Positions 3,705 through 64,000 of a stretch of 64,000 nt of DNA are shown here, piece by piece. Position numbers and translations under genes: made by a program. Each line of letters starts with the position of its first letter. Position 1 is the stretch's first letter. A model generated the notes under the pieces. That model had not been told where the DNA came from. It was given only the letters and a program-made list of their open reading frames with translations, and did no database searches. Source of the stretch: Sinohyriopsis cumingii (taxonomy: Eukaryota > Mollusca > Bivalvia > Unionida > Unionidae); assembly GCA_028554795.2 (NCBI GenBank), contig CM068842.1, positions 47,699,574-47,763,573 of the forward strand, read 5' to 3'.

Positions 3705-5229
3705 TTAGATCACTGTGTCCTGTTAGCAACTGACATACCCAGTGGTAAAGGACCTGGATAAATTATTCCCAACCACTTTTTTACCTGTCACATCAGCTAG
3801 TTAAAATGAATTTACTTGGAATTTTAGTGAACAAAAATGTCATGGAAGTTTTAAATGCTTTTACTTGTGTACCAACTTTCAGTCACACCAGATGTTAACA
3901 AGGTATATCCAGAGATACCTTACTGAAATCTTGTGCAATGCATTTTCTCATCAGCACTATCAATAACATGAATCCCCCAAAAATACATATGTTATAAATT
4001 TGATCACATAAATGGAGATTAACAATTATTGTTTTTCAAAAATGGAACTTGACAACTGCAATTTATTGCAGGTTAAGGAGGAAAAATGTACATTTGTTAA
4101 ACTGAAATTTGCATAAATTATTGCATTTTCCCCTATTGTCACACTGGGTATATCTACCTGGACAAAAATTGGACCAATAAATGATTTTATATGACCACTA
4201 TATGTTAAGTTTGGTATCTTGGTTTTGTAAATTTTTAATTATTTTTATGAGAATTGTTTTAATAACTTTTTTGTAATTTTCATATATTTTTCTCAATAGT
4301 TTTATGGGTAGATCTCTTTCCACCTCAGATGCAATGACATAAATAAACATCTTCTTTGATAATTCTAAAATACTTATCTTGGAATTTCATTAATGCCAAA
4401 AGGGACTGTTTATCTCTTTAAGTTGGTGAAAATTTGAATCTGTGAACGACATGAATTTCAAGATTTATTTCCCTTTTATATGGCAATCACTGAGAATACA
4501 CACATTTCTAAAGGATGAAAGTTGAATGCTACTGAATTATGTAACTCATTCAATGATTCTGAGATTCTGGGAAAATCCCAAATATTTCAATATATTACCT
4601 AATACATGTGATGATACAGAAAGGGAGGCAACTCAAATTATACAGATGCATGAATTGTACTGCTTGTCAATTACATTTATATTAATATTCTGTCATCAAT
4701 TTATTAACCTAAATTTACCTTTGAAAATCTAATACCTAATAATAATAAAAGCCAGGACAAAGATTATAATTCTCATGTATTAATTATTATGTATATTTAA
4801 TTTGCTCTGCTTATTAGTTTTATTTTATTTCATTACATGCTACTGTAGTGTAACACTGTATGTTGGACTTGACCTTGTCCAAAATTGAGGTAATTTCTGC
4901 TTGACCCAAATTGACTTTTTTACTTTCATCATTGTAAACAACTAATGCATAGCTAAATTATCCTCTGTGTGTATGGGTTTAAAATCAGTATTATTATTAA
5001 TAGAAGAAGTAAATATAATTATTTGGGCAAAGGTTTCGGAATTTCCTAATTAAATTTTACAGGTTATTGTTTTTATTTTGTAAACATCAGGAAAACTCTA
5101 GAAGGATATTCTTCATTAGGTAATTTTGCTTTTAGAAAATGCTAATTATGATCTGAGGTCAAGTAAAGAACTATATATATTGTGACTAAGAGGATTTTAC
5201 CATTCATACTTTAACATCTAGCACTTTCA
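3705..5229. other. No gene or repeat recognised
   Basis: AT-rich sequence. The short motif gaaagggaggcaactc at about 4619, common in mollusc intergenic DNA, is the only thing I recognise. Confidence 0.6.
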
Positions 5230-5690: not shown

Positions 5691-5848
5691 ACTGTGCCCA
5701 GGGAAACCTTACCACCATTATTGTCTGAGCATTTCACTCCAAACAGAAGTTTTCAGTGTAAAAGATACATAATGCGGTCATCAGCAAAGGCCACTGACTA
5801 CCATGTTATATTGAGGGTTAGTTGTACCATTGTAAAATATCTGCCTTT

Positions 5849-6096
5849 GTTGTTGCTGTTGTTGTTGTGGGGTTTAACGCTATTTTTCAGCACACGATAG
5901 GCTATGCATGGCAGCCAGTATTAATGGTGGAGGAAGAACCCTGGAAAACCCCGGGAAGAACCACCAACCCACGAGAAGCTACTGGCGAGCTTTCTCACAT
6001 ACCCACGTTAGCCGAATCCTAGACTCAAACCCACGCAGAGGTGAGATGGCAGTGATCCGTAATGGAGAGCGCTTTAGACCACTTGGCCACTTGGGG
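5849..6096 (-). mobile_element. tRNA-derived SINE (family A), with target-site duplication
   Basis: Same family as at 2652 in reverse orientation. The tail (caa-type on the minus strand) is at 5849-5870 and the tRNA-like head ends at about 6096. It is flanked by atctgccttt at 5839-5848 and 6097-6106. It inserted next to LTR-like sequence at 5230-5690. Confidence 0.9.
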
Positions 6097-6229
6097 ATCT
6101 GCCTTTGAAACAGGATTATTTTACACTTGTAACTAAGTGAAATTTCTATGAAAAATGTTATTGCAACAAATATGGAAGAAAAATGTTACTGCAGTACATA
6201 CATGAGTCAGTCTTGTCACAGTCAGCGTC

Positions 6230-6770: not shown

Positions 6771-7684
6771 GCACAAGGACAAAAATAGCTCTATGTGTGC
6801 ACCACAGAGTAGGAAAGGCATCATACAGCCAGGTTATGGTTGATAACCAGGAAGAGGATAGAGAGATGGAGAGAAGAGGAAAAGGAATACAGCAAATCTG
6901 ACCTGTCATCAATTTTGACTTTGAGAAGATCAGAAGCAACCAGGTTAGGCAGGCATACTGAGCATTGAGTTTGACTGATCACTCAATTCTGTGATGAAAT
7001 TTGATATAGCAGAATGGTATCTGCATTTCTTACAGTTTTGTAATTCTATTTCTAAGAGAACATGTATCATTCAAATGTAATGTTCAATTTCATTTTTTTA
7101 ATGTTATTGATTAAATTGTTATATTTTCCATAGGGGGCTAATGTTGTTCTATTCTATATCTCTGCTCAGATCTCTGTTATTCCATCCATCAATTTCATGT
7201 TTTATATTATTATTGACTTGATCAGGCAATAACACCATGGTTGATGATCTCTTAGATAATGATAACCAAACAAAAGCACCACATATTTGTAACAATACTG
7301 AGGTGTCATTTAGAGTGGAACCACTATGACAGTTTTCTGCTGAAAATGGCAATGATGGCTGTCAGATATAGTCTTATCATAACTCAACAGACTAAGGCTA
7401 ATTCACAACCTGATAAACACACACAAAAATCCCATCATTATAAAATTCATGTCTTTTTTCCTAGCTGCTATCCACATTCCTAACTGGAACCATAATATAA
7501 CTAGACATCCTAGTAAATAGTACTATGCCCTGTTGGCTGTAAATCACTAACTATCTCGCTTGAAAAGAAATTACAGCTTAATTACCCCAATAGATTAATG
7601 GACTTCACTCCTTTTCCAAACTACATTATTTACTATTATTATTTGACATAGCATTTCCAGATGTAAAAAAATAAATTCCTAGCA
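6771..7684. other. No gene recognised
   Basis: Between repeat X and the LTR remnant. The short ORFs on both strands show no protein-like features. Confidence 0.55.
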
Positions 7685-7769: not shown

Positions 7770-9230
7770 AGACTGTTCCGACTGTCACGGGTCCTGAGGC
7801 TAAGTCTGATGACAAATTTACACAATGGAGAGGAACATTAACAAAGCCGCACTCTACTCCCTGAATAAGAATACTCTCATTAGAAGAAGACTTCACAGTA
7901 AAAGGCAAAGTACTTGACAATAAAAGACTGAGAGTCTCCTGTGTCCCTTAAAATATTATTAGGGATAGGATTGGCTGAATCACCCACGAGTGATATAGAA
8001 CCCTTCAATATGAATGGTTCATAATTCTCCATAATAAAATCAGACTGGGGTTTATTAGATCCAACAAATGTAGTGCTTTCAATACATGACCATGACCTTG
8101 ACCTCTTAGAAATAAGAGCATCTGGAATAGGTCTGTCTTCATTCTGATGCCTATTTTTCAATCTGTGGCCATCAGAAATAAGTTTGACTTTTAGAAGTTG
8201 TGCCAGTTTGAGTTTTAGAAGGGCTTGTATTAGGCTGAAATACTTTTCTGCCAGAAGACAGTTGAGTAGAAGTCTTATTTACAAAAGGAACTTTTATGAG
8301 TTAAGGAATACTCATCAGCAGCACGAGCAGCATTTTCCAAGGTTTCTTTCTGATGCTCGTCAAGATAAATCTTAATGTCACCATGTATGCAGTTTTTGAA
8401 ATCTTAAAGTAATATAAGTTGTTAGAGACTTTGATAATCTTGTTCAACTTTCTTGGCTAAGCACCATCTATCAAATAACTGCTCTTTTCTCTAGCAAATT
8501 CGACATGAGTTTGTCCAGCTTCTTTTTTATAGTTTCTGAATTATTGCCAATAAGCTTCAGGGACTAACTCATATCCCCTTAAGATGCATTCTTTGACCGT
8601 ATCATAGTCACCACTTTGTTGAACTGACAGTGAACAGTAAATATCGTTAGCTTTACCAGTGAGTATACATTGTAATAATTGAGTCCAATGCTTTTTCAAA
8701 ATAAGGAAAATATTTGTCTACTTCTTTTTCTCTGAAAGGGGGCAGTAATCTAATATTCTTTGCAAGGTAAAAACTTAAATTTGGATTTGAAGTATGAATT
8801 TGCTTTTAACTTGCCAGTTCCACTTCTTGCATTCTACATTGATATTCCCTCTCTTTCTCTCTTTCTTCCTTATCTAATTGCATTTGTTTTTCTTGTAATT
8901 GCATTTGGCTTTCTTCCTCTCTTTCTTCTGTTTGTTAACACATTTATTTTTCTTCTTTATCTTTCTGAAGTTCCAGCTTCTTCAACTCTAATTCCATCTT
9001 GTATTTTAATTTTAATTATTTCATTTTTATGTCAGAGTCTGATACAGATTTACTGATCAAAACCAAAGCACTTTGATCCAAAACATTCTTTTCTACCAAA
9101 TGCTGAACTAAAATATTTCTTATTTCTTGTTTTGTTAAGGAAGCCATTAAGTCAGAAAGATCGTATTTTCTTTCTTGAAAAGATTTAATTGTTCCTGGGT
9201 AGGATTTGAAAAAAAGAGATTTCTACTTTT
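7770..9230 (-). pseudogene. Remnant of Ty3-type retrotransposon Gag and protease
   Basis: On the minus strand the sequence at about 8760-8300 reads, in interrupted frames, like the Gag of Ty3-type elements common in invertebrates (EFAREKEQLFDRWC-like, then a LDEHQKETLENAA-like stretch), with several stops and frameshifts. At 8010-7770 a retropepsin-like segment carries RDTGDSQSF, SILIQGVE-like and SSDLASGPVTVG motifs, including the catalytic DTG. No zinc knuckle, reverse transcriptase or integrase was found. After the protease the sequence jumps straight into LTR-like sequence, so the pol region is deleted. Dead element. Confidence 0.8.
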
Positions 9231-11502: not shown

Positions 11503-13360
11503 CCTGTATCTGCTCTTATACTGTCCATAATGAAGATATTCCTGTACTTGCTCTTACACTGTCTACAGTGTAGTTGGCCCTGTATTAATTCTTATACTGT
11601 CTACAGTGTAGTAGACCACATATTAATTCTTGTACTGTCTACAGTGTAGTTGGCCCTGTATTAATTCTTATACTGTCTACAGTGTAGTAGACCATGTATT
11701 AATTCTTATACTGTCTACAATGTAGTTGGCCCTGTATTAATTCTTACACTGTCTACAGTGTAGTTGGCCCTGTATTAATTCTTATACTGTCTACAGTGTA
11801 GTTGGCCCTGTATTAATTCTTATACTGTCTACAGTGTAGTAGACCACATATTAATTCTTGTACTGTCTACAGTGTAGTTGGCCCTGTATTAATTCTTATA
11901 CTGTCTACAGTGTAGTAGACCATGTATTAATTCTTATACTGTCTACAATGTAGTTGGCCCTGTATTAATTCTTACACTGTCTACAGTGTAGTTGGCCCTG
12001 TATTAATTCTTATACTGTCTACAGTGTAGTTGGCCCTGTATTTATTCTTATACTGTCTACAGTGTAGTTGGCCCTGTATTAATTCTTATACTGTCTACAG
12101 TGTAGTTGGCCCTGTATTAATTCTTATACTGTCTACAGTGTAGTTGGCCCTGTATTAATTCTTATACTGTCTACAGTGTAGTTGGCCTTGTATTAATTCT
12201 TATACTGTCTACAGTGTAGTTGGCCCTGTATTAATTCTTATACTGTCTACAGTGTAGTTGGCCCTGTATTAATTCTTATACTGTCTACAGTGTAGTTGGC
12301 CCTGTATTAATTCTTATACTGTCTACAGTGTAGTTGGCCCTGTATTAATTCTTATACTGTCTACAGTGTAGTTGGCCCTGTATTAATTCTTATACTGTCT
12401 ACAGTGTAGTTGGCCTTGTATTAATTCTTATACTGTCTACAGTGTAGTAGACCACATATTAATTCTTATACTGTCTACAGTGTAGTTGGCCCTGTATTAA
12501 TTCTTATACTGTCTACAATGTAGTTGACCCTGTATTAATTCTTATACTGCCTACAGTGTAGCTGGCAATGTATTAATTCTTATACTGTCTACAATGTAGT
12601 TGACCCTGTATTAATTCTTATACTGTCTACAGTGTAGTTGGCCCTGTATTAATTCTTATACTGTCTACAATGTAGTTGACCCTGTATTAATTCTTATACT
12701 GTCTACAGTGTAGTTGGCAATGTATTAATTCTTATACTGTCTACAATGTAGTTGACCCTGTATTAATTCTTATACTGTCTACAGTGTAGTTGGCCCTGTA
12801 TTAATTCTTATACTGTCTACAATATAGTTGACCCTGTATTAATTCTTATACTGTCTACAGTGTAGTTGGCAATGTATTAATTCTTATACTGTCTACAATG
12901 TAGTTGACCCTGTATTTATTGTTACACTGTCTACAATGCATTTGGCCATGTATTCATTTTTAAACTGTCTGCAATGCAGCTGGCCTTGTATTTATTCTTA
13001 AACTTGCTAGAATGCAGTTGGCCCTGTATTTATTTTTTAACTGTTTACAATGCATTTGGCCACATATTAATTTTTAAACTGTCTACACTGCAACTGGCCT
13101 TGCATTTATTCTTAAACTTGCTACAATGCAGTTGGCTCTGTATTTATTCTTACACTGTGTATGATGTAGTTGGCCCTGTATTTATTCTTACGCTGTCTAC
13201 AATGCAGTTGGCCCTGTGTTCATCCTTAAACTGTCTACAATGCAGTTGGCCCTGTGTTCATCCTTAAACTGTCTACAATGCAGTTGGCCCTGTGTTCATT
13301 CTTAAACTGTCTACAAAGCAGTTGGCCTGGAAATTATTCTTAAACTGTCTATGATGAAGG
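11503..13360. repeat. 1.9-kb minisatellite of 38-bp units with higher-order periods
   Basis: About 48 units built from gtagttggccctgtattaat and tcttatactgtctacagt. Each unit contains the palindrome CTACAGTGTAG. Variant units recur with periods of 228 bp (11611 and 11839) and 152 bp (12564, 12716, 12868). The right end from about 12.93 kb is more diverged (tttttaaactgtctacaatg). Confidence 0.97.
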
Positions 13361-27837: not shown

Positions 27838-28540
27838 CAAATACTAGTAACAGACAGATGGACTGACACAATCATAACATAATAAACTCTGCCTTGTGGT
27901 GGACATAGAAATATTGGATTTGTTTTATTACAAATTCCATTGGACACTTCATGGCTACATCTTCAATTATTCTTGTGTCATGTAATGAACCTACCCTGTT
28001 GTATACGATGAAGTAATATTTCACTAGTTAAATATCACAGATATTAAACTGGATAAAGCAATATAATTTCATGGACATGGTATAATGAAACACAGATTTA
28101 TAGTACTGTACTTCCAATCTTCTTGGCAGTTTGTTTATTTTTGCACCAAGGGCTGAATGAACACTCATTAAAATATGAAAGGCGAGTCCACATGTTGCAT
28201 CACCGTGGTTGGTACAAATGATGCATGTCTCTATTCCCATAAAGTTACCGATTGTGAATTCAGCCCTTACACCAGGACTATGTATTATGAAGATTAATTT
28301 TTGAGTATAAAAAACCTAAAAGTTCACAACACTGACTAAACTTGAATCTTCTTGTGACTTTGTGACTTCATATTTAACACAATGTTTAAACAATCACCAA
28401 TCACACCACTTTCAAACAAATATTCAAACAAACACCCTCATGGGGTGGGAAGGCAGTGATTTTGGGACCATGTGATGACTTTTTAGTGGAAACTTGTCCA
28501 AATCAATAGACTAAAGTGATACTAATCAACCCGTATGATC

Positions 28541-29395
28541 TAATAAGACTCCCTTCTCTGAATTCTGATAATCTAAAGAGACTCCCTTCTCTTCATCTCA
28601 GACCATCTAATAAGACTGCCTTCTCTCAATTCAGGTGGCCGAGTGGTCTAAAGCGTTCGCCGTTACGGATCACTGCCATCTCACCTCTGTCTGCGCCGGT
28701 TCGAGTCTCAGATTCAGCCAATGTAGATATGTGAGAAAGCATGCCAGTAGCTTCTCGTGGGTTGGTGGTTCTTTCCGGGGTTTTCCCGGGTTCTTCCTCC
28801 ACCATTAATACTGGCCGCCATATATGGCCTATCGTGTGCTGAAAAATGGCGTTAAACCCCACAACAACCAACCAACTCTCAATTCAGATCATCGAAAGAG
28901 ACTCCCTTCTCTTCATCTCAGACCATCTAATAAGACTTCCTTCTCTCAATTCAGATCATCGAAAGAGACTCCCTTCTCTTCATCTCAGACCATCTAATAA
29001 GACTGCCTTCTCTCAATTCAGATCATCGAAAGAGACTCCCTTCTCTTCATCTCAGACCATCTAATAAGACTGCCTTCTCTCAATTCAGATCATCGAAAGA
29101 GACTCCCTTCTCTTCATCTCAGACCATCTAAAAGGACTTCCTTCTCTCAATTGAGATCATCGAAAGAGACTCCCTTCTCTTCATCTCAGACCATCTAATA
29201 AGACTGCCTTCTCTCAATTCAGATCATCTAAAGAGACTCCCTTCTCTTCATCTCAGACCATCTAATAAGACTGCCTTCTCTCAATTCAGATCATCGAAAG
29301 AGACTCCCTTCTCTTCATCTCAGACCATCTAATAAGACTGCCTTCTCTCAATTCAGATCATCTAAAGAGACTTCCTTCTCTTTATCTAGCTCATC
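28541..29395. repeat. 67-bp tandem repeat split by a SINE
   Basis: About ten units with caattcagatcatcgaaaga, gactcccttctcttcatctc and agaccatctaataagactg. A SINE sits inside the array at 28635-28875, flanked by a 12-bp target-site duplication taken from the unit. Confidence 0.95.
28635..28875 (+). mobile_element. tRNA-derived SINE (family A) inserted into the 67-bp array
   Basis: Best-preserved copy: A box region gtggccgagtggtctaaagc and B box ggttcgagtctc, then the conserved body and a CAAC-rich tail. The target-site duplication ctctcaattcag occurs at 28623-28634 and 28876-28887. Confidence 0.93.
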
Positions 29396-38227: not shown

Positions 38228-41200
38228 CATGGCAACATCATGCTGCATTAAGACAATGCATGACTGCAGCAACACCACCATGCATCAGGACAAACCATGA
38301 CTGCAGCCACACCACCATGGATCAGGACAATGCATGACTGCAGTAATGCCACCATGCATCAGGACAATGCATGACTGCAGTAATACCACCATGCATCAGG
38401 ACAATGTATGACTGCAGTAACACCACCATGCATCAGGACAATGCTTGAATGCAGTAACACCACCATGCATCAGGACAATGCATGACTGCAGTAATGCCAC
38501 CATGGATCAGGACAATGCATGACTGCAGTAATGTCACCATGCATCAGGACAATGCATGACTGCAGTAATGCCACCATGCATCAGGACAATGCATGACTGC
38601 AGCAACACCACCATGCATCAGGACCATGCATAACTGCAGCAATTCCACCAAGCATCAGGACAAAGCATCACTGCAGTAATGTCACCATGCATCAGGACAA
38701 TGCATGACTGCGGTAATCTCAATATGCATCAGGACAATGCATGACTGCAATAACACCACCATACATCAGGACAATGCATGACTGCAGTAACACCACCACC
38801 ATGCATCATGACAATGCATGACTGCAGCAACACCAACCTGCATCAGGACAAACTATGACTGCAGTAATGTCACCATGCATCAGGACAATGTATGACTGCA
38901 GTAATGCCACCTTGAATCAGGACAATGCATAACTGCAGTAACACCACCATGCATTAGGACAAAGTATGACTGCAGTAACACCACCATGCATCAGGACAAT
39001 GCATGACTGCAGTAATGCCACCATGCATCAGGACAAAGCATGAATGCAGTAACACCACCATGCATCAGGATAATGCATGACTACAGTAACACCACCATGC
39101 ATCAGGACAATGCATGAATGCAGTAACACCATCATGCATCAGGACAATGCATGACTACAGTAACACCACCATGCATCAGGACAATGCATGACTGCAGTAA
39201 CACCACCATGCATCAGGACAATGCATGACTGCAGTAATGTCACCATGCATCAGGACAATGCATGACTGCAGTAATGCCACCATGCATCAGGACAATGCAT
39301 GACTGCAATAACACCACCATGCATCAGGACAATGCATGACTATAGTAACACCACCATGCATCAGGACAATGCATGACTGCAGTAATGTCACCATGCATCA
39401 GGACCATGCATGACTGCAGCAACACCACCATGCATCAGGACAATGCATAACTGCAGTAACACCACCATGCATCAGGACAATGCATAACTGCAGTAATCCC
39501 ACCATGCATCAGGACAATGCATGACTGCAGTAACACCACCACCATGTATCATGACAATGCATGACTGCAGCAACACCAGCCTGCATCAGGACAAACCATG
39601 ACTGCAGTAATGTCACCATGCATCAGGACAATGTATGACTGCAGTAATGCCACCTTGAATCAGGACAATGCATAACTGCAGTAACACCACCATGCATTAG
39701 GACAATGTATGACTGGAGTAAAACCACAATGCATCAGGACAATGCATGACTGCAGTAACACCACCATGCATCAGGACAATACATGACTGCAGTAATGCCA
39801 CCTTGAATCAGGACAATGCATGACTGCAGTAACACCACCATGTATCAGGACAATGCATAACTGCAGTAATGCCACCATGCATCAGGACAATGCATGACTG
39901 CAGTAATGCCACCATGCATTAGGACAATGCATGCTTGCAGCAACACCAATCTGCATCAGGACAATGCATGACTGCAGTAACACCACAATGCATCAGGACA
40001 ATGCATGACCACAGTAATACCACCATGCATCAGGATAATGCATGACTGCAGTAATGCCATCCTGAATCAGGACAATGTATAACTGCAGCAACACCACCAT
40101 GCATCAGGACAATGTATGACTACAGTAACACCACCATGCATCAGGACAAACCATAACTGCAGTAATGTCACCATGCATCAGGACAATGCATGACTGCAGT
40201 AATGCCATCCTGAATCAGGACAATGCATGACTGCAGTAACACCATCTTGAATCAGGACAATGCATAACTGCAGTAACACCACCATGCATTAGGACAATGC
40301 ATGACTGCAGTAACACCAATCTGCATCAGGACAATGCATGACTGCAGTAACACTACAATGCATCAGGACAAACCATGACTGCAGTAATGCCACCCTGCAT
40401 TCAGGACAAAGCATGAATGCAGTAAAACCACCATGCATCAGAACAAACCATGACTGCAGTAACACCACCATGCATTAGGACAATGTATGACTGCAGTAAC
40501 ACCACCATGCATTAGGTCAATGTATGACTGCAGTAACACCACCATGCATCAGGACAATGCATGACTGCAGTAAAACCACCATGCATCAGGACAATGCATG
40601 AATGCAGTAAAACCACCATGCATCAGGACAATGTATGACTGCAGTAAAACCACCATGCATCAGGACAATATATAACTACAGTAACACCACCATGCATCAG
40701 GACAATGCTTGAATGCAGTAATGCCACCATGCATCAGGACAAAGCATGAATGCAGTAACACCACCATGTATCAGGACAATGCATGACTACAGTAACACCA
40801 CCATGCATCAGGACAATGCATGACTACAGTAATGCCACCATGCATCAGGACAATGCATGACTACAGTAACACCACCATGCATCAGGACAATGCATGAATG
40901 CAGTAATGCCACCATGCATCAGGACAATGCATGACTACAGTAACACCACCATGCATCAGGACAATGCATGAATGCAGTAATGCCACGATGCATCAGGACA
41001 ATGCATGACTGCAATAACACCACCATGTATCAGGACAAAGCATGACTGCAGTAATGTCACCATGCATGAGGACAATGTATGACTGCAGTAACACCACCTT
41101 GAATCAGGACAATGTATGACTGCAGTAACACCAACATGCATCAGGACAATGTATGACTGCAGTAACACCACCATGCATCAGGACAATGCATGACTACAGT

Positions 41201-41828
41201 AACGCCACCATGCATCAGGACAATGCATGACTACAGTAACACCACCATGCATCAGGACAATGCATGAATGCAGTAATGCCACCATGCATCAGGACAATGC
41301 ATGACTACAGTAACACCACCATGCATCAGGACAATGCATGAATGCAGTAATGCCACGATGCATCAGGACAATGCATGACTGCAATAACACCACCATGTAT
41401 CAGGACAAAGCATGACTGCAGTAATGTCACCATGCATCAGGACAATGTATGACTGCAGTAACACCACCTTGAATCAGGACAATGTATGACTGCAGTAACA
41501 CCAACATGCATCAGGACAATGTATGACTGCAGTAACACCACCATGCATTAGGACAATGCATGACTGCAGTAATGTCATCATGCATCAGGACAATGCATGA
41601 CTGCAGTAACACCACCTTGAATCAGGACAATATATACTGCAGTAACACCACCCTGCATCAGGACAATGTATGACTGCAGTAATGCCACCATAGATCAGGA
41701 CAATGTATGACTGCAGTAATGCCACCATACATCAGGACAATACATGAATGCAGTAACACCACCATGCATCATGACAATGTATACTGCAGTAACACCACCC
41801 TGCATCAGGACAATGTATGAAGGTGAAC
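38228..41828. repeat. 3.6-kb minisatellite of 37-bp units
   Basis: Roughly 97 head-to-tail units with the core catcaggacaatgcatgact followed by gcagtaacaccaccatg. The unit carries ATGCAT and CTGCAG palindromes. Higher-order structure is visible: a 370-bp block (ten units) at about 40.76-41.13 kb is repeated at 41.13-41.50 kb, and a block at about 38.79 kb recurs about 740 bp later. It lies in the intron between the exons at 42.46 and 35.24 kb. The ORFs through it are by-products of the repeat. Confidence 0.97.
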
Positions 41829-43990: not shown

Positions 43991-44171
43991 AGATGACCTT
44001 GACAAAGAAAGCATGGTGCGGGTAGGGGAACGAGAATCTCTGGGTCTTCTGGTAGGTGACAAAGATTTAGAAAGTCGCTCCTTTTCCATCTCCAGTCGAA
44101 TTTTTTCAGACTCCCGTGCAATTTCATTGCGGGTCTCCTCCACACTGTCTGTCTCAATCTTTTTGTCAAGT
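43991..44171 (-). CDS. Charged helix followed by Ser-Pro/Arg linker exon
   Basis: The exon is 181 nt: one base completing a split codon, then 60 codons. The acceptor is AAAATTTTAG|A at 44173-44172 and the donor is TCATCT|GTAAGT, close to consensus. The first half is a charged helix (ETRNEIARESEKIRLEMEKE). The second half is a basic Ser-rich linker with two SPTR motifs (LSPTRRPRDSRSPTRT), plausible proline-directed kinase sites. It marks the transition from the disordered N-terminal part to the coiled coil. Confidence 0.88.
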
Positions 44172-52414: not shown

Positions 52415-52515
52415 TTTTGAAATTTGCAGTCTTGGATTTTTGTTCACGCACAAATAACACAACTGTTCCAGTGATTCTAAACACAAATCAAATGCCCGTA
52501 ATTGCTGAGCATATC
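52415..52515 (-). CDS. Small exon, amphipathic segment (GYAQQLRAFDLCLESLEQ...)
   Basis: The acceptor is GTGCCCAG|GA at 52517-52516, and the exon begins with two bases that complete the Gly codon split by the giant exon. It encodes 33 more residues beginning YAQQLRAFDLCLESLEQLC and ending LQISK. The pattern is helical and amphipathic with four Cys-containing positions or neighbours. The donor is weak (TCAAAA|GTTTTAAG at 52414-52413) but gives phase 0, as the next exon needs. A foldback repeat copy ends about 35 bp into the downstream intron. No known domain was recognised. The call rests on phase agreement and protein-like composition. Confidence 0.62.
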
Positions 52516-54089: not shown

Positions 54090-55045
54090 CTATCCATTCT
54101 TTTGAAAATCTTGAAAATTCTTCTAATAAACCAGAGAAGTCATCATCTGTGTGATACTTAATTAACTCATTGGCATCATTTGAATTGTCCATAGAATTGT
54201 TAGCCATAGTATCACTCCCTTTAGCATTAAAATCTTCTTTTGAGGAAACCCAAAGATTTTTGTTGACATCTATCGTGCATAATCATTACCTGTTTATTTT
54301 TCAAATCCAGCAAATGGACTAAAATGAACAGCTCTCTTTCTGTCATGGCTAGAATTTGTATCATTATCTCATATTAAGTTCATGCAGATGAACAAATTTT
54401 TGTGTTGATATAATTCTCCTTGTCTTCATAAAATAAATTTTTATTATCTGCACAATATGATTGTGTTGTACATGGCTTAATCAAAGCATGATTATATTTT
54501 CTGCTGATGACTTCTCTTTTTTTGTCTCTGAAGTCTTCATATTCATGTGCCGTTCTCCTGGATAATCTTCTAGGTCTTTGGAGGATCAAGGCATGGCCAC
54601 CTTCAGGACTGGATATCTCTTAGCACAGCAAGATGTAAACATTTCCAAATCTATTTTACAATTATTTTTTCTATAGGTAATACCAGAAATTGGTACTTTT
54701 GTTAAAGAACCTTCCAGCTTCATTGTGGAAGAAATTATCTGATTTGGACATACAGTTATCTACACAACTGTATTGGTTTATACCTGTGGTAACCCTCTGT
54801 CTCTGAGAGTGTGAAACTATGTCCTGCACTGGTTGTCCTGTCTCCCATCTTAAGCCCTTGTGTCATTTGTACTCCTTTTGCATTGGGAGACACATTCTTG
54901 GAGCTTGTCACTGTAATGAAGTTAGGTTCCTTGTTGTCAGTGTCTTTTAACTAGTCTCATCCATGGCTTCTTCAAGTTTTGGAAACTCATCTCTTTCTTC
55001 CCTGACATTTCTATTATCCATGGCCTTCTCCTCCAAGATACAAAA
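54090..55045 (-). pseudogene. Decayed protein-coding relic (former exon) inside the intron
   Basis: On the minus strand, protein-like stretches follow one another in changing frames. These include EKAMDNRNVREERDEF (stop at 54949-54947), NVSPNAKGVQMTQGLKMG (stop at 54758-54756), SKSDNFFHNEAGRFF (stop at 54673-54671), DLEMFTSCCAKRYPV (stop at 54588-54586), RRTAHEYEDFRDKKREV (stop near 54380), DRKRAVHFSPFAGFEK (stop at 54296-54294) and TDDDFSGLLEEFSRFSKEW. At least six frame changes or stops are needed. Composition (Ser, Asp, Asn, Lys) is like the giant exon next to it. The last stretch ends in a donor-like ATAG|GTAGGA of phase 1, the same phase as the functional donor at 55937. I infer a former 3' part of the giant exon, or of a duplicate of it. 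Assembly indels are possible but all surrounding exons are intact. Confidence 0.7.
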
Positions 55046-55049
55046 CAAT

Positions 55050-55955
55050 ATAGTTTTTTTTTGGCTATCTGTGTGTCAATCTCAACTTAATCTGGCTCTG
55101 TAGTTTTTTTTGGCTATCTGTGTGTCAATCTCAATTTAATCTGGCTCTGTAGTTTTTTTTGGCTATCTGTGTGTCAATCTCAACTTAATCTGGCTCTGTA
55201 GTTTTTTTCTGGCTATCTGTGTGTCAATCTCAACTTAATCTGGCTCTGTAGTTTTTTTTGGCTATCTGTGTGTCAATCTCAACTTAATCTGGCTCTGTAG
55301 TTTTTTTTGGCTGTCTGTGTGTCAATCTCAACTTAATCTGGCTCTGTAGTTTTTTTTTGGCCGTCTGTGTGTCAATCTCCACTTAACCTGGCTCTGTAGT
55401 TTTTTTTTGGCTGTCTGTGTGTCAATCTCAACTTAATCTGGCTCTGTAGTTTTTTTTGGGCTGACTGTGTGTCAATCTCAACTTAATCTGGCTCTGTAGT
55501 TTTTTTTTGGCTATCTGTGTGTCAATCTCAACTTAATCTGGCTCTGTAGTTTTTTTTTGGCTATCTGTGTGTCAATCTCAACTTAATCTGGCTCTGTAGT
55601 TTTTTTTTGGCTATCTGTGTGTCAATCTCAACTTAATCTGGCTCTGTAGTTTTTTTTTGGCTATCTGTGTGTCAATCTCAACTTAATCTGGCTCTGTAGT
55701 TTTTTTTTGGCTATCTGTGTGTCAATCTCAACTTAATCTGGCTCTGTAGTTTGTTTTTGGCTATCTGTGTGTCAATCTCAACTTAATCTGGCTCTGTAGT
55801 TTTTTTTTGGCTATCTGTGTGTCAATCTCAACTTAATCTGGCTCTGTAGTTTTTTTTTGGCTATCTGTGTGTCAATCTCAACTTTATCTGGCTCTGTAGT
55901 TTTTTTCTGGCTGACTGTGTGTCAATCTCCACTTAACCTGGCTCATAATCACATT
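55050..55955. repeat. 49-bp minisatellite overlapping the giant exon's splice donor
   Basis: About 18 copies of a unit containing ggctatctgtgtgtcaatc, aacttaatctggctctgtag and a T run of variable length. The copy nearest the exon (55921-55947) contains the exon end and donor, read on the minus strand as GAGCCAG|GTTAAGTGGAG. Most other copies read GAGCCAGATTAAGTTGAG, so the donor GT is AT. One internal copy (55376-55395) keeps GAGCCAGGTTAAGTGGAG. Confidence 0.95.
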
Positions 55956-58900: not shown

Positions 58901-59962
58901 TGCTCAGCTACCAGTGGTTGATAGTTCATTGCATCAAGTGGCACAGATGGGTGTTGTCTATGAAAGGTTACACCAGAGTGCCTCATTGAAGGAAGAGGTG
59001 ACCTGGCTGGGTAACCACCACCGAAAACATCCCCTTTACAAAAAAATGTACCACCTTTTTGCATAACTGATGAATTAGATTGCTGGAAGTTGTCAAAATC
59101 ATGATTGATCCTATCATTTGATGTGCTTGATGACACAGAATTTGATGTAATAAACTGATCACTAGTTGTTTCTGAGGACACGACAGAGCTGGCAAAGGAT
59201 GAATCCACCCTACTGATGTGAGGCTTTATTCTCTTTAGCTTTGAATATTGCTCAAAAAGTCCATAAGAATCAATGGATATTTGTGCACTATCCGTGGATG
59301 ATGTGCTAGATGTATCTGCTCCTCCCCTGTGCTTTTTCCTGCTAAACACCTTCTTGGCAAATGGAAATTCTTCATTATCTTCATCTGGAATGATCAAGTC
59401 ATGATGTCTCTGTTGGCCTTTTTTAATAATTTTTTGTGAATTTTTTTGTCCAACAACTCTTTGTTTCTTTGAGTCCTCTCTAGAGGAGCTTACAGTATGT
59501 GATGAGTATCTGTTGAATTCATTTTCACTGACAGGATGATATAAATCTGTACTCTTTCTCAGATCAAAATCAATCCATTCATCAAGCAAAGAGTCTGATG
59601 TGCTTGACTTGGAGGCATTGGACCTGTTAGCAAAACTGCTTTTTGAACTCTCATAATTGGGCACAAAACTGCTTCCTGTGGATTCTTGATTGGTAAATTG
59701 CTGTCCTGAGTACATCTTCAAATCTCCATGGGAGTTCTCTAATTTTACATTGGATGACACAGAGTCGCAACTACAAGTGTCATACCTATCACAAGAGCTC
59801 CTTGAAGAGTGGGTTTGTGATAATTCTGACTGGTTCTGGCTGTCAGATTCATCAAATGAAGAGGAGATTTTGGACATTCTAGATGCTGAATACAAGTGGT
59901 CCTTGTCCAGTGCAAATCTCGGAGAGAACTCATTCAAATTCCATCCAGAGGAGATCCATTGT
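55938..59962 (-). CDS. Giant internal exon: Ser-rich disordered protein with KRAP/ITPRID-like motif
   Basis: This exon carries 1,341 whole codons plus one split base at each end. The acceptor is TTGTTGCAG|A at 59964-59963 and the donor is CCAG|GTTAAGT at 55937-55936. The open frame runs on to 59988 only by reading into the acceptor tract, so the Met there is probably not a start. The protein is rich in Ser, Asp, Asn and Lys with no membrane segment or globular domain that I can see. At exon residues about 352-372 (58908-58846) it reads AEQVLMNLGF, a short spacer, then LPERF. This resembles the core of the KRAP/ITPRID/Tespa1 inositol-trisphosphate-receptor-binding region, whose pattern as I recall it is LxxLGF, acidic residues, then IPxRF. 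In vertebrate members this motif lies in the N-terminal part and a coiled coil near the C-terminus, the same order as here. The match is short and the family assignment is tentative. The frame meets a stop (TAA) inside the donor, so an unspliced product would end after ...CDYEPG. Confidence 0.93.
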
Positions 59963-61994: not shown

Positions 61995-63332
61995 CAAGCC
62001 CTGGACAGAATCTATCAGTAACCAAAATGCCTCCAAAGATACTACACTACCTCACAGAATCTATCAGTAACCAAAATGCCTTCAAAGATACTACACTACG
62101 TCACAGAATCTATCAGTAACCAAAATGCCTCCATAGATACTACACTACCTCACAGAATCTATCAGTAACCATAATGCCTCAAAAGATACTACACTACCTC
62201 ACAGAATCTATCAGTAACCAAAATGCCTCCATAGATACTACACTACCTCACAGAATCTATCAGTAACCAAAATGCCTCCATAGATACTACACTACCTCAC
62301 AGAATCTATCAGTAACCAAAATGCCTCCATAGATACTACACTACCTCACAGAATCTATCAGTAACCAAAATGCCTCCATAGATACTACACTACCTCACAG
62401 AATCTATCAGTAACCAAAATGCCTCCAAAGATACTACACTACGTCACAGAATCTATCAGTAACCAAAATGCCTCCATAGATACTACACTACCTCACAGAA
62501 TCTATCAGTAACCAAAATGCCTCCATAGATACTACACTACCTCACAGAATCTATCAGTAACCAAAATGCCTCCATAGATACTACACTACCTCACAGAATC
62601 TATCAGTAACCAAAATGCCTCCATAGATTCTACACTACCTCACAGAATCTATCAGTAACCAAAATGCCTCCATAGATACTACACTACCTCACAGAATCTA
62701 TCAGTAACCAAAATGCCTCCATAGATACTACACTACCTCACAGAATCTATCAGTAACCAAAATGCCTCCATAGATACTACACTACCTCACAGAATCTATC
62801 AGTAACCAAAATGCCTCCATAGATACTACACTACGTCACAGAATCTATCAGTAACCAAAATGCCTCCATAGATTCTACACTACGTCACAGAATCTATCAG
62901 TAACCAAAATGCCTCCATAGATACTACACTACCTCACAGAATCTATCAGTAACCAAAATGCCTCCATAGATACTACACTACCTCACAGAATCTATCAGTA
63001 ACCAAAATGCCTCCATAGATACTACACTACCTCACAGAATCTATCAGTAACCAAAATGCCTCCATAGATACTACACTACCTCACAGAATCTATCAGTAAC
63101 CAAAATGCCTCCATTGATACTACACTACCTCACAGAATCTATCAGTAACCAAAATGCCTCCAAAGATACTACACTACCTCACAGAATCTATCAGTAACCA
63201 AAATGCCTCCATAGATACTACACTACCTCACAGAATCTATCAGTAACCAAAATGCCTCCATAGATACTACACTACCTCACAGAATCTATCAGTAACCAAA
63301 ATGCCTCCATAGATACTACACTACCTCACAGA
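61995..63332. repeat. 49-bp minisatellite, about 27 copies
   Basis: The unit contains cctcacagaatctatcagta, accaaaatgcctccatagat and actacacta. Copies are almost identical, differing mainly by cctcac/cgtcac and atagat/aaagat. This suggests recent expansion or homogenisation. Confidence 0.97.
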
Positions 63333-64000
63333 AAAAAAGCTTACAAAGACTGTGATCTTTATTTGCATAATATAAATGATGGCTACCATTCGCTGGAGAC
63401 TTTTTTAGGGTGGGATACAGGTTGAGGCTGGCTATAATAGGAAATATTTTCTAATTATATGTCAGCATTTCAGCCGATAAACTAGGTCATGTTTATAGCT
63501 AGTTCGACAAAATTTAACATAACAATACCATTAAATGGCAAAAGATATTCAGCAAACTAAACCAATCTTATAAAAATTTTGTTATAGTTAAATATTTTAT
63601 AAAAATAAGCTATTATATTGAAGAGAACAACAATGAATATGATGTAATGTGCTTACAATGTCTTGTTTATGAAAAAAAAGTACTTAAGAATTTAGAAAAA
63701 GATAATATATCTGGGGAATTTCTAGAGAATCAATTGTAGAGGCAAGTTGACAAATTGAAGGTTGATAGCAGATGATAAAGTAGGTGTTGGACAACTTCTT
63801 GCAAAATTTGAAACTTGGATTAAGATACAGTATTGTTCTAAGGTAACCATTTGTATGTTTTAAATAATGTATTTATTAGTATGATTCTAAAAGATAATAA
63901 TAAATAGGTTTTTCTGGGTTACAAGTTCAAGAAGGTCATAGAGTAGGTCTTCATGTTGACATTTTAAAATCACATTTTAATATGCATTTAGAATAGAAAT
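63333..64000. other. Right edge: no feature recognised
   Basis: AT-rich sequence after the 49-bp array. The upstream exon(s) of the minus-strand gene were not found here. Confidence 0.6.

Follow-up and report, generated by a model that had tools for sequence, protein, structure and literature searches.

A minisatellite at the end of a giant coding exon in Sinohyriopsis cumingii and the possible birth of an intron from exon sequence

How new spliceosomal introns originate is still a matter of debate, and young cases in which the evidence of their formation is preserved are scarce. According to the intronization hypothesis, as presented in the cited portion of Catania and Lynch (2008; PMC2586383), where Irimia et al. 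(2008) are also cited, a part of an exon that carries stop codons becomes an intron. In human segmental duplications, minisatellite expansion within genes is said, in the section drawn on here, to activate cryptic splice sites and to form novel introns (PMC2812944). The amphioxus "Mirages" are described as minisatellite-like duplications of exon-intron boundaries, and in the passages cited their authors propose that the repeats may become intronic given a downstream acceptor, whether present or arising (PMC3087553). The novel introns of Drosophila, in the extract used, are flanked by weaker splice sites and tend to contain stops, and genomic insertions are proposed as their origin (PMC2809761).

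The window analysed here is a stretch of 64,000 nucleotides, C19:47699574-47763573 of a 2.9-Gb assembly, and the gene under study is on its minus strand, to which all gene features below belong. What is directly observed is an array, a coding-like stretch broken in frame, candidate splice sites with matching phases, and a heptad register that runs across the joins 54090/52515 and 52452/44171 (slashes mark splice boundaries throughout). From these we infer the actual splicing, an ancestral continuous exon and the order of events.

The explanation that we propose, and whose chances of being right or wrong we consider about even, is that an intron arose within a giant coding exon, the end of which was kept as a small exon of its own. 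The ancestral giant exon would have extended to the donor at 54090. A stretch of about 50 bp within it would have turned into a minisatellite, with units that disrupt the reading frame and introduce stops. Splicing from a phase-1 donor in unit 1 (after 55938) to a phase-1 acceptor ahead of 54236 would remove the array and the roughly 800 bp behind it as one intron (55937-54237, 1,701 nt), containing the minisatellite together with the decayed coding sequence. The bypassed coding sequence would have decayed through frameshifts, and the last 147 nt of the ancestral exon, encoding the start of a coiled coil, would have survived as an exon in its own right, spliced to 52515. We advance only tentatively the more specific version, in which a minisatellite itself born from coding sequence split the giant exon, and a donor pairing with U1 around a bulged nucleotide, together with an in-phase acceptor, discards the array and about 265 codons, keeping the coiled-coil end and leaving the lost coding sequence still legible. 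If the proposal is true, the locus still shows the repeat responsible for breaking the exon, a donor within the first repeat unit, bypassed codons in the course of decay and a preserved exon end with its old donor, and the copy number of the repeat is predicted to be free to vary without touching the protein.

The giant exon, the array and the splice-site candidates

The giant open reading frame runs from 60063 to 55936 (1,376 codons), with a candidate acceptor at 59962 and a candidate donor after 55938 (GAGCCAG/GTTAAGT, phase 1); it terminates in ...CDYEPG, followed by TAA at 55933. When the giant exon was searched against its own genome, the self-match alone was returned at E <= 0.001, and no relatives emerged from genome_contigs or viral_contigs, each scanned once. 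The exon belongs to no Pfam family and has no PDB sequence match, and a 350-aa part of it gave one sub-threshold, unrelated match in Pfam. Since no credible Pfam family was found for any part of the gene examined, and no PDB sequence match either, the gene is left unnamed. An LGF...PERF motif suggested an ITPRID/KRAP identity; this was rejected, as the PF14722 match is absent from the giant exon. The one KRAP_IP3R_bind (PF14722) match of the genome is at C10:91047496-91047654 (38.1 bits, E 2.5e-6).

The minisatellite occupies positions 55051-55944 (TRF: period 50, 18 copies, 96% matches). The initial annotation had placed the exon end, 55938, inside the first unit of a 49-bp array. The location stands, as the candidate GT is immediately preceded by 55938, a base within repeat unit 1; the period does not, the units being 50 bp long in 13 of 17 full units and 49 bp long in the other 4. 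The array contains 22, 22 and 21 stops across the three frames and is therefore untranslatable throughout. Unit 1 starts GAGCCAGGTTAAGTGG at 55944, and the proposed donor lies 7 bp into the array. The claim that the array had supplied a new donor does not hold as such: the GGTTAAG variant, with GT at the donor place, is found in units 1 and 12 only of the 18, the same place reading GATTAAG or GATTAAA in 15 units and GATAAAG in unit 2, so the array as such is not a source of donors, and the donor, which lies in the edge unit, is weak when scored by matrix. Translated in the frame of the exon, unit 2 gives EPDKVEIDTQIAKKKL, and unit 1 gives EPG, a stop and VEIDTQSARKKL; these readings fit a unit born from coding sequence and do not prove it. 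A search of the genome with the array returned the self-match alone.

Two sequences are shared between separate units, GGTTAAGTGG being common to units 12 (55394) and 1 (55944) and AGTCAGCC to units 10 (55494) and 1, which hints at exchange between distant units. The window holds 21 separate minisatellite arrays with a TRF score of at least 150, covering 13.7 of its 64 kb; examples are those at 38244-41820, 11552-13351 and 62005-63333.

Splice sites were scored with matrices and a U1 5' end that we assume to be correct. The donor at 55938 scores -0.66 by matrix, and its U1 duplex (-9.7 kcal/mol) is among the best 0.3% of GTs on the minus strand, with a pairing that requires one bulged U, CAG/GU(U)AAGU. 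The donor at 54090 is strong by matrix (3.0), with a U1 duplex (-9.4 kcal/mol) among the best 0.4%. Bulge registers are, in the cited part of PMC9311317, a recognised mode of 5' splice site binding. The sequence ATAG/GTAGGA, with 54090 as the last exonic base, and the phase 1 common to 55938, 54090 and the acceptor at 52515 were both confirmed as first annotated. The acceptor at 54236, cctcaaaag/AAG (tctttgggtttcctcaaaag/AAG), is middling, with a score of 1.8 (best 9% of AGs); the acceptor at 52515 scores 1.4 (best 10.5%). Candidate splice sites of phase 1, both modest by matrix, are thereby present at 55938 and 54236, on either side of the 1,701-nt stretch. Two other in-phase donors were not preferred: 55953 (score 1.33) would create a TGA with the 52515 exon, and 56484 (score -0.39, U1 -6.5 kcal/mol) would drop 546 nt of open exon.

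The coding-like, frame-broken stretch

The sequence between the array and the candidate small exon (54237-55033, inside the proposed intron) is coding-like and broken in frame, and is probably former exon sequence; we refer to it as the relic. About 950 bp of protein-like sequence in at least seven frame segments had been annotated past the array, and this was borne out: the best frameshift-tolerant path, scored with the codon usage of the giant exon, extends from 55033 to 54097 in 8 segments, with 7 frameshifts and 1 in-frame stop. Dinucleotide shuffles equalled this path in 0 of 300 cases at frameshift penalties of 6 and 8, and in 1 of 300 at a penalty of 10. Among 346 tiles of the window, higher scores were confined to the giant exon, the exon near 44188-43982 (on either strand) and a repeat at 28.5-29.4 kb. 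In a genome background of 800 tiles from 16 arbitrarily placed 10-kb loci, 3, 8 and 18 tiles did as well at penalties of 6, 8 and 10. With a composition-free frame score over the same path, the last segment alone remains, and 11-14 of the 800 tiles equal it.

Without its last segment, the relic was evaluated with a genome-background codon score. It exceeded all 123 intron tiles of the same gene at penalties of 4, 6 and 8, and 500, 499 and 489 of 500 shuffles at these same penalties, at which 1, 7 and 17 of 736 random tiles matched it; its antisense strand scores 10.3. The 809 bp of the relic contain four sense open reading frames of at least 57 aa and none antisense, a number reached by 0 of 500 shuffles and 8.4% of random tiles. 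Its A/T skew is +0.218, compared with a maximum of +0.154 among the intron tiles of the same gene (n = 65) and +0.106 in the giant exon. A 34-nt match with 85% identity links the relic to the giant exon, with YCxDNKN in both frames (34.0 bits), a level reached by 3 of 400 shuffles, 0 of 144 random tiles and 0 of 15 intron tiles; at the protein level, this match is not significant (E 0.21).

The codon score, the restriction of long open reading frames to the sense strand, the A/T skew and the nucleotide match all count against an ordinary old intron, in which the exons at 55938 and 54236 were always separate, the minisatellite overlaps the donor incidentally, and the relic resembles coding sequence by chance or is unrelated debris. 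We consider this explanation unlikely on balance, and if it is right, the locus has an ordinary minisatellite at an exon edge. It draws support from the commonness of minisatellites in the window and from the tests in which the relic, without its last segment, gives a weak frame-only signal or is not distinctive. The composition-free frame score of 55045-54237 was matched at a penalty of 4 by 0 of 500 shuffles, 0 of 123 intron tiles and 53 of 736 random tiles, and at penalties of 6 and 8 by 71-74 of 500 shuffles, 12 of 123 intron tiles and 197 of 736 random tiles. In a frame-free trinucleotide test, 156 of 576 random tiles were as high as the relic, and the best segment extended to 53890. In a decay simulation, saturated sequences still scored about 42, under a mutation model that drifted in base composition. 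Because the codon-score, open-reading-frame, skew and nucleotide tests are positive and the frame-only and frame-free tests are weak, we regard the origin of 55033-54237 as former exon sequence as likely rather than established.

Other identities of the relic were rejected. Its DNA and its stitched peptide, searched against the 2.9-Gb assembly, match only themselves, which speaks against a transposon or a paralogue. A tandem copy of the giant exon was rejected for the relic as a whole, there being the one short match described above and no collinear alignment. A reading of the relic as several live exons was also rejected, since successive reading frames overlap (54950-54756, 54862-54671, 54759-54586 and 54619-54380) and leave no space for introns. 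A second exon candidate within the relic, 54910-54784, scores 11.2.

The excess of frameshifts (7, versus 1 in-frame stop on the best path) is what would be expected if the broken frames were sequencing or assembly mistakes beside a repeat. This is nevertheless very improbable in our judgement, as the giant open reading frame is open over 4.1 kb, no stop interrupts the exon chain, segment 7 contains two stops in a longer reading and the assembly has no second copy of the relic; moreover, the stops of the array make a bypass necessary whatever the relic reads.

The retained exon end and the downstream chain

The tail beyond the array had been annotated as bypassed and decayed as far as 54090. 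With the reservations given above, decay is supported from the array to about 54237; the final piece, 54236-54090, is open and exon-like and is probably a surviving exon of 147 nt, with phase 1 at entry and exit, that encodes ...DFSGLLEEFSRFSKEWI. The last segment of the relic path, 54270-54091, is stop-free and ranks, by frame score, at the 98th percentile among windows of the giant exon; the seven remaining segments range from the 7th to the 82nd. In an exon scan, 54236-54090 scores 19.9 and is the top candidate between 55100 and 52700. The other minus-strand sequences that score at least 19.5 are parts of the giant exon, eleven further members of the chain and 8162-7914, and the background is 7 such candidates in 320 strand-kb (16 arbitrary loci); the codon table of the scan was trained on this same gene, so the high scores of the chain exons are partly by construction. 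Its openness, its frame score and its rank in the interval suggest that 54236-54090 is probably still spliced in. As 147 nt is a multiple of three, this exon can be included or skipped without a change of frame.

The next exon, 52452-52515 (YAQQLRAFDLCLESLEQLCY, phase 1 in and 2 out), is weak by splice and codon scores, which at 0.2-1.0 are at background level, and was accepted for its coiled-coil register and its place in the phase chain, not for its scores. It is followed by 43991-44171 (LDKKIETDSVEETR..., phase 2 in and 0 out). Joining 54090/52515 and 52452/44171 gives DFSGLLEEFSRFSKEWIG-YAQQLRAFDLCLESLEQLCYLLDKKIETD, in which 13 of the 14 heptad core positions across both joins are occupied by F, L, W, Y, C or I, within a single uninterrupted register, with W, Y and C counted as hydrophobic in a test that was devised after the peptide pattern had been noticed. 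The 18 residues to the left of the 52515 exon fit this register through 54090 with p 0.0023 (20,000 shuffles), a fit found in 0.03% of 11,651 random stop-free windows. Taken at face value, the register indicates a join, present or past, between 54090 and 52515, and a functional-looking half of a coiled coil in the piece that precedes 54090. Given the strong donor and a heptad coiled coil that continues in register into 52515, the initial proposal that the exon once ended at 54090 is very probably correct.

The companion proposal, that 55938 is spliced directly to 52515 and that everything from the array through 54090 is decaying intron, fares differently, and we hold it to be quite improbable. 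The phases do fit, the bypassed 147-nt piece is a multiple of three, and 147 bp would escape frameshifts by chance, at the rate observed upstream, with a probability of 0.23-0.33. A direct join, however, breaks the heptad register (p 0.97 for the 18 residues to the left of the 52515 exon), and it would skip an intact, exon-like piece that is the best exon candidate of its interval and in which a continuous coiled coil begins.

Between 42543 and 15512 there are ten more candidate exons, consistent in phase and for the most part coiled-coil-like: 42543-42460, 35240-35128, 34552-34381, 30499-30335, 25677-25552, 23533-23355, 22551-22446, 19682-19524, 18063-17962 and 15694-15512. The chain of 14 exons that includes the giant exon and 54236-54090 is consistent in phase and, counted from the start of the open reading frame, comprises 1,969 codons with zero stops, the donors at 52452 and 23355 having been picked for phase fit. 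Thirteen open, phase-consistent candidate exons downstream argue that the array is bypassed. They weigh against a truncated product, in which the array is unspliced, translation ends at 55933 and the downstream exons are out of use; the weakness of the 55938 donor by the usual matrix and the TAA that follows it would agree with truncation, which we nonetheless think highly unlikely.

Some further sequences were noted around the chain. Downstream of the window, on the minus strand near position 4719 of locus L014, a coiled-coil-like peptide (QEHMKELEKMHEK...) with a weak HAP1_N match (E 0.0015, 18.3 bits, under the 33.9-bit cut-off) may be a later exon of the same gene. An open, exon-like stretch at 7914-8162, on the minus strand and outside the chain, has an exon-scan score of 21.8 and may represent either an exon or the remains of a transposon. 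The peptide themes WPSGLKRSPL... and EEEPGKTLERT... recur on either strand at 2558-2966, 5822-6185 and 28510-28883, and near 7554 of locus L011, in what looks like an interspersed element.

Comparison with described routes to new introns

As far as the cited portions of the literature go, the kind of event proposed here is already known, since repeat-driven intron formation has been described (PMC2812944, PMC3087553). The sources consulted on intronization or intron gain with minisatellites or tandem repeats, and on cephalopod minisatellites and introns, contain, in the parts covered, no case that we recognised as this gene.

The locus resembles intronization, as outlined in the passages cited from PMC2586383, in that a stop-carrying part of an exon would be spliced out in frame, and a phase of alternative splicing would be expected. 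It differs in that the disruptive element is apparently a minisatellite, and in that we infer the ancestral state and the splicing from sequence alone. The human segmental duplications, in the section cited (PMC2812944), concern recent paralogues with transcripts and units averaging 30 bp repeated 4 times, whereas the array described here has 18 copies of about 50 bp, some 800 bp of apparently decayed coding flank and no detected paralogue.

The Mirages share with this locus a tandem array on an exon-intron boundary. According to the cited account (PMC3087553), however, their units duplicate an existing boundary and many of them carry splice signals, while here a GT at the donor place is found in units 1 and 12 of 18, so that the units do not generally carry one. 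A published duplication case, in the part drawn on, is similar in having a donor that comes from duplicated, formerly exonic sequence, and differs in consisting of one duplication across an existing intron boundary instead of an array with a separate downstream acceptor. Finally, the putative intron is like the novel introns of Drosophila, as characterised in the extract used (PMC2809761), in having a donor that is weak by matrix and stops in all frames; an origin by insertion is proposed for those introns, whereas here the intron would have originated from the sequence of the exon itself.
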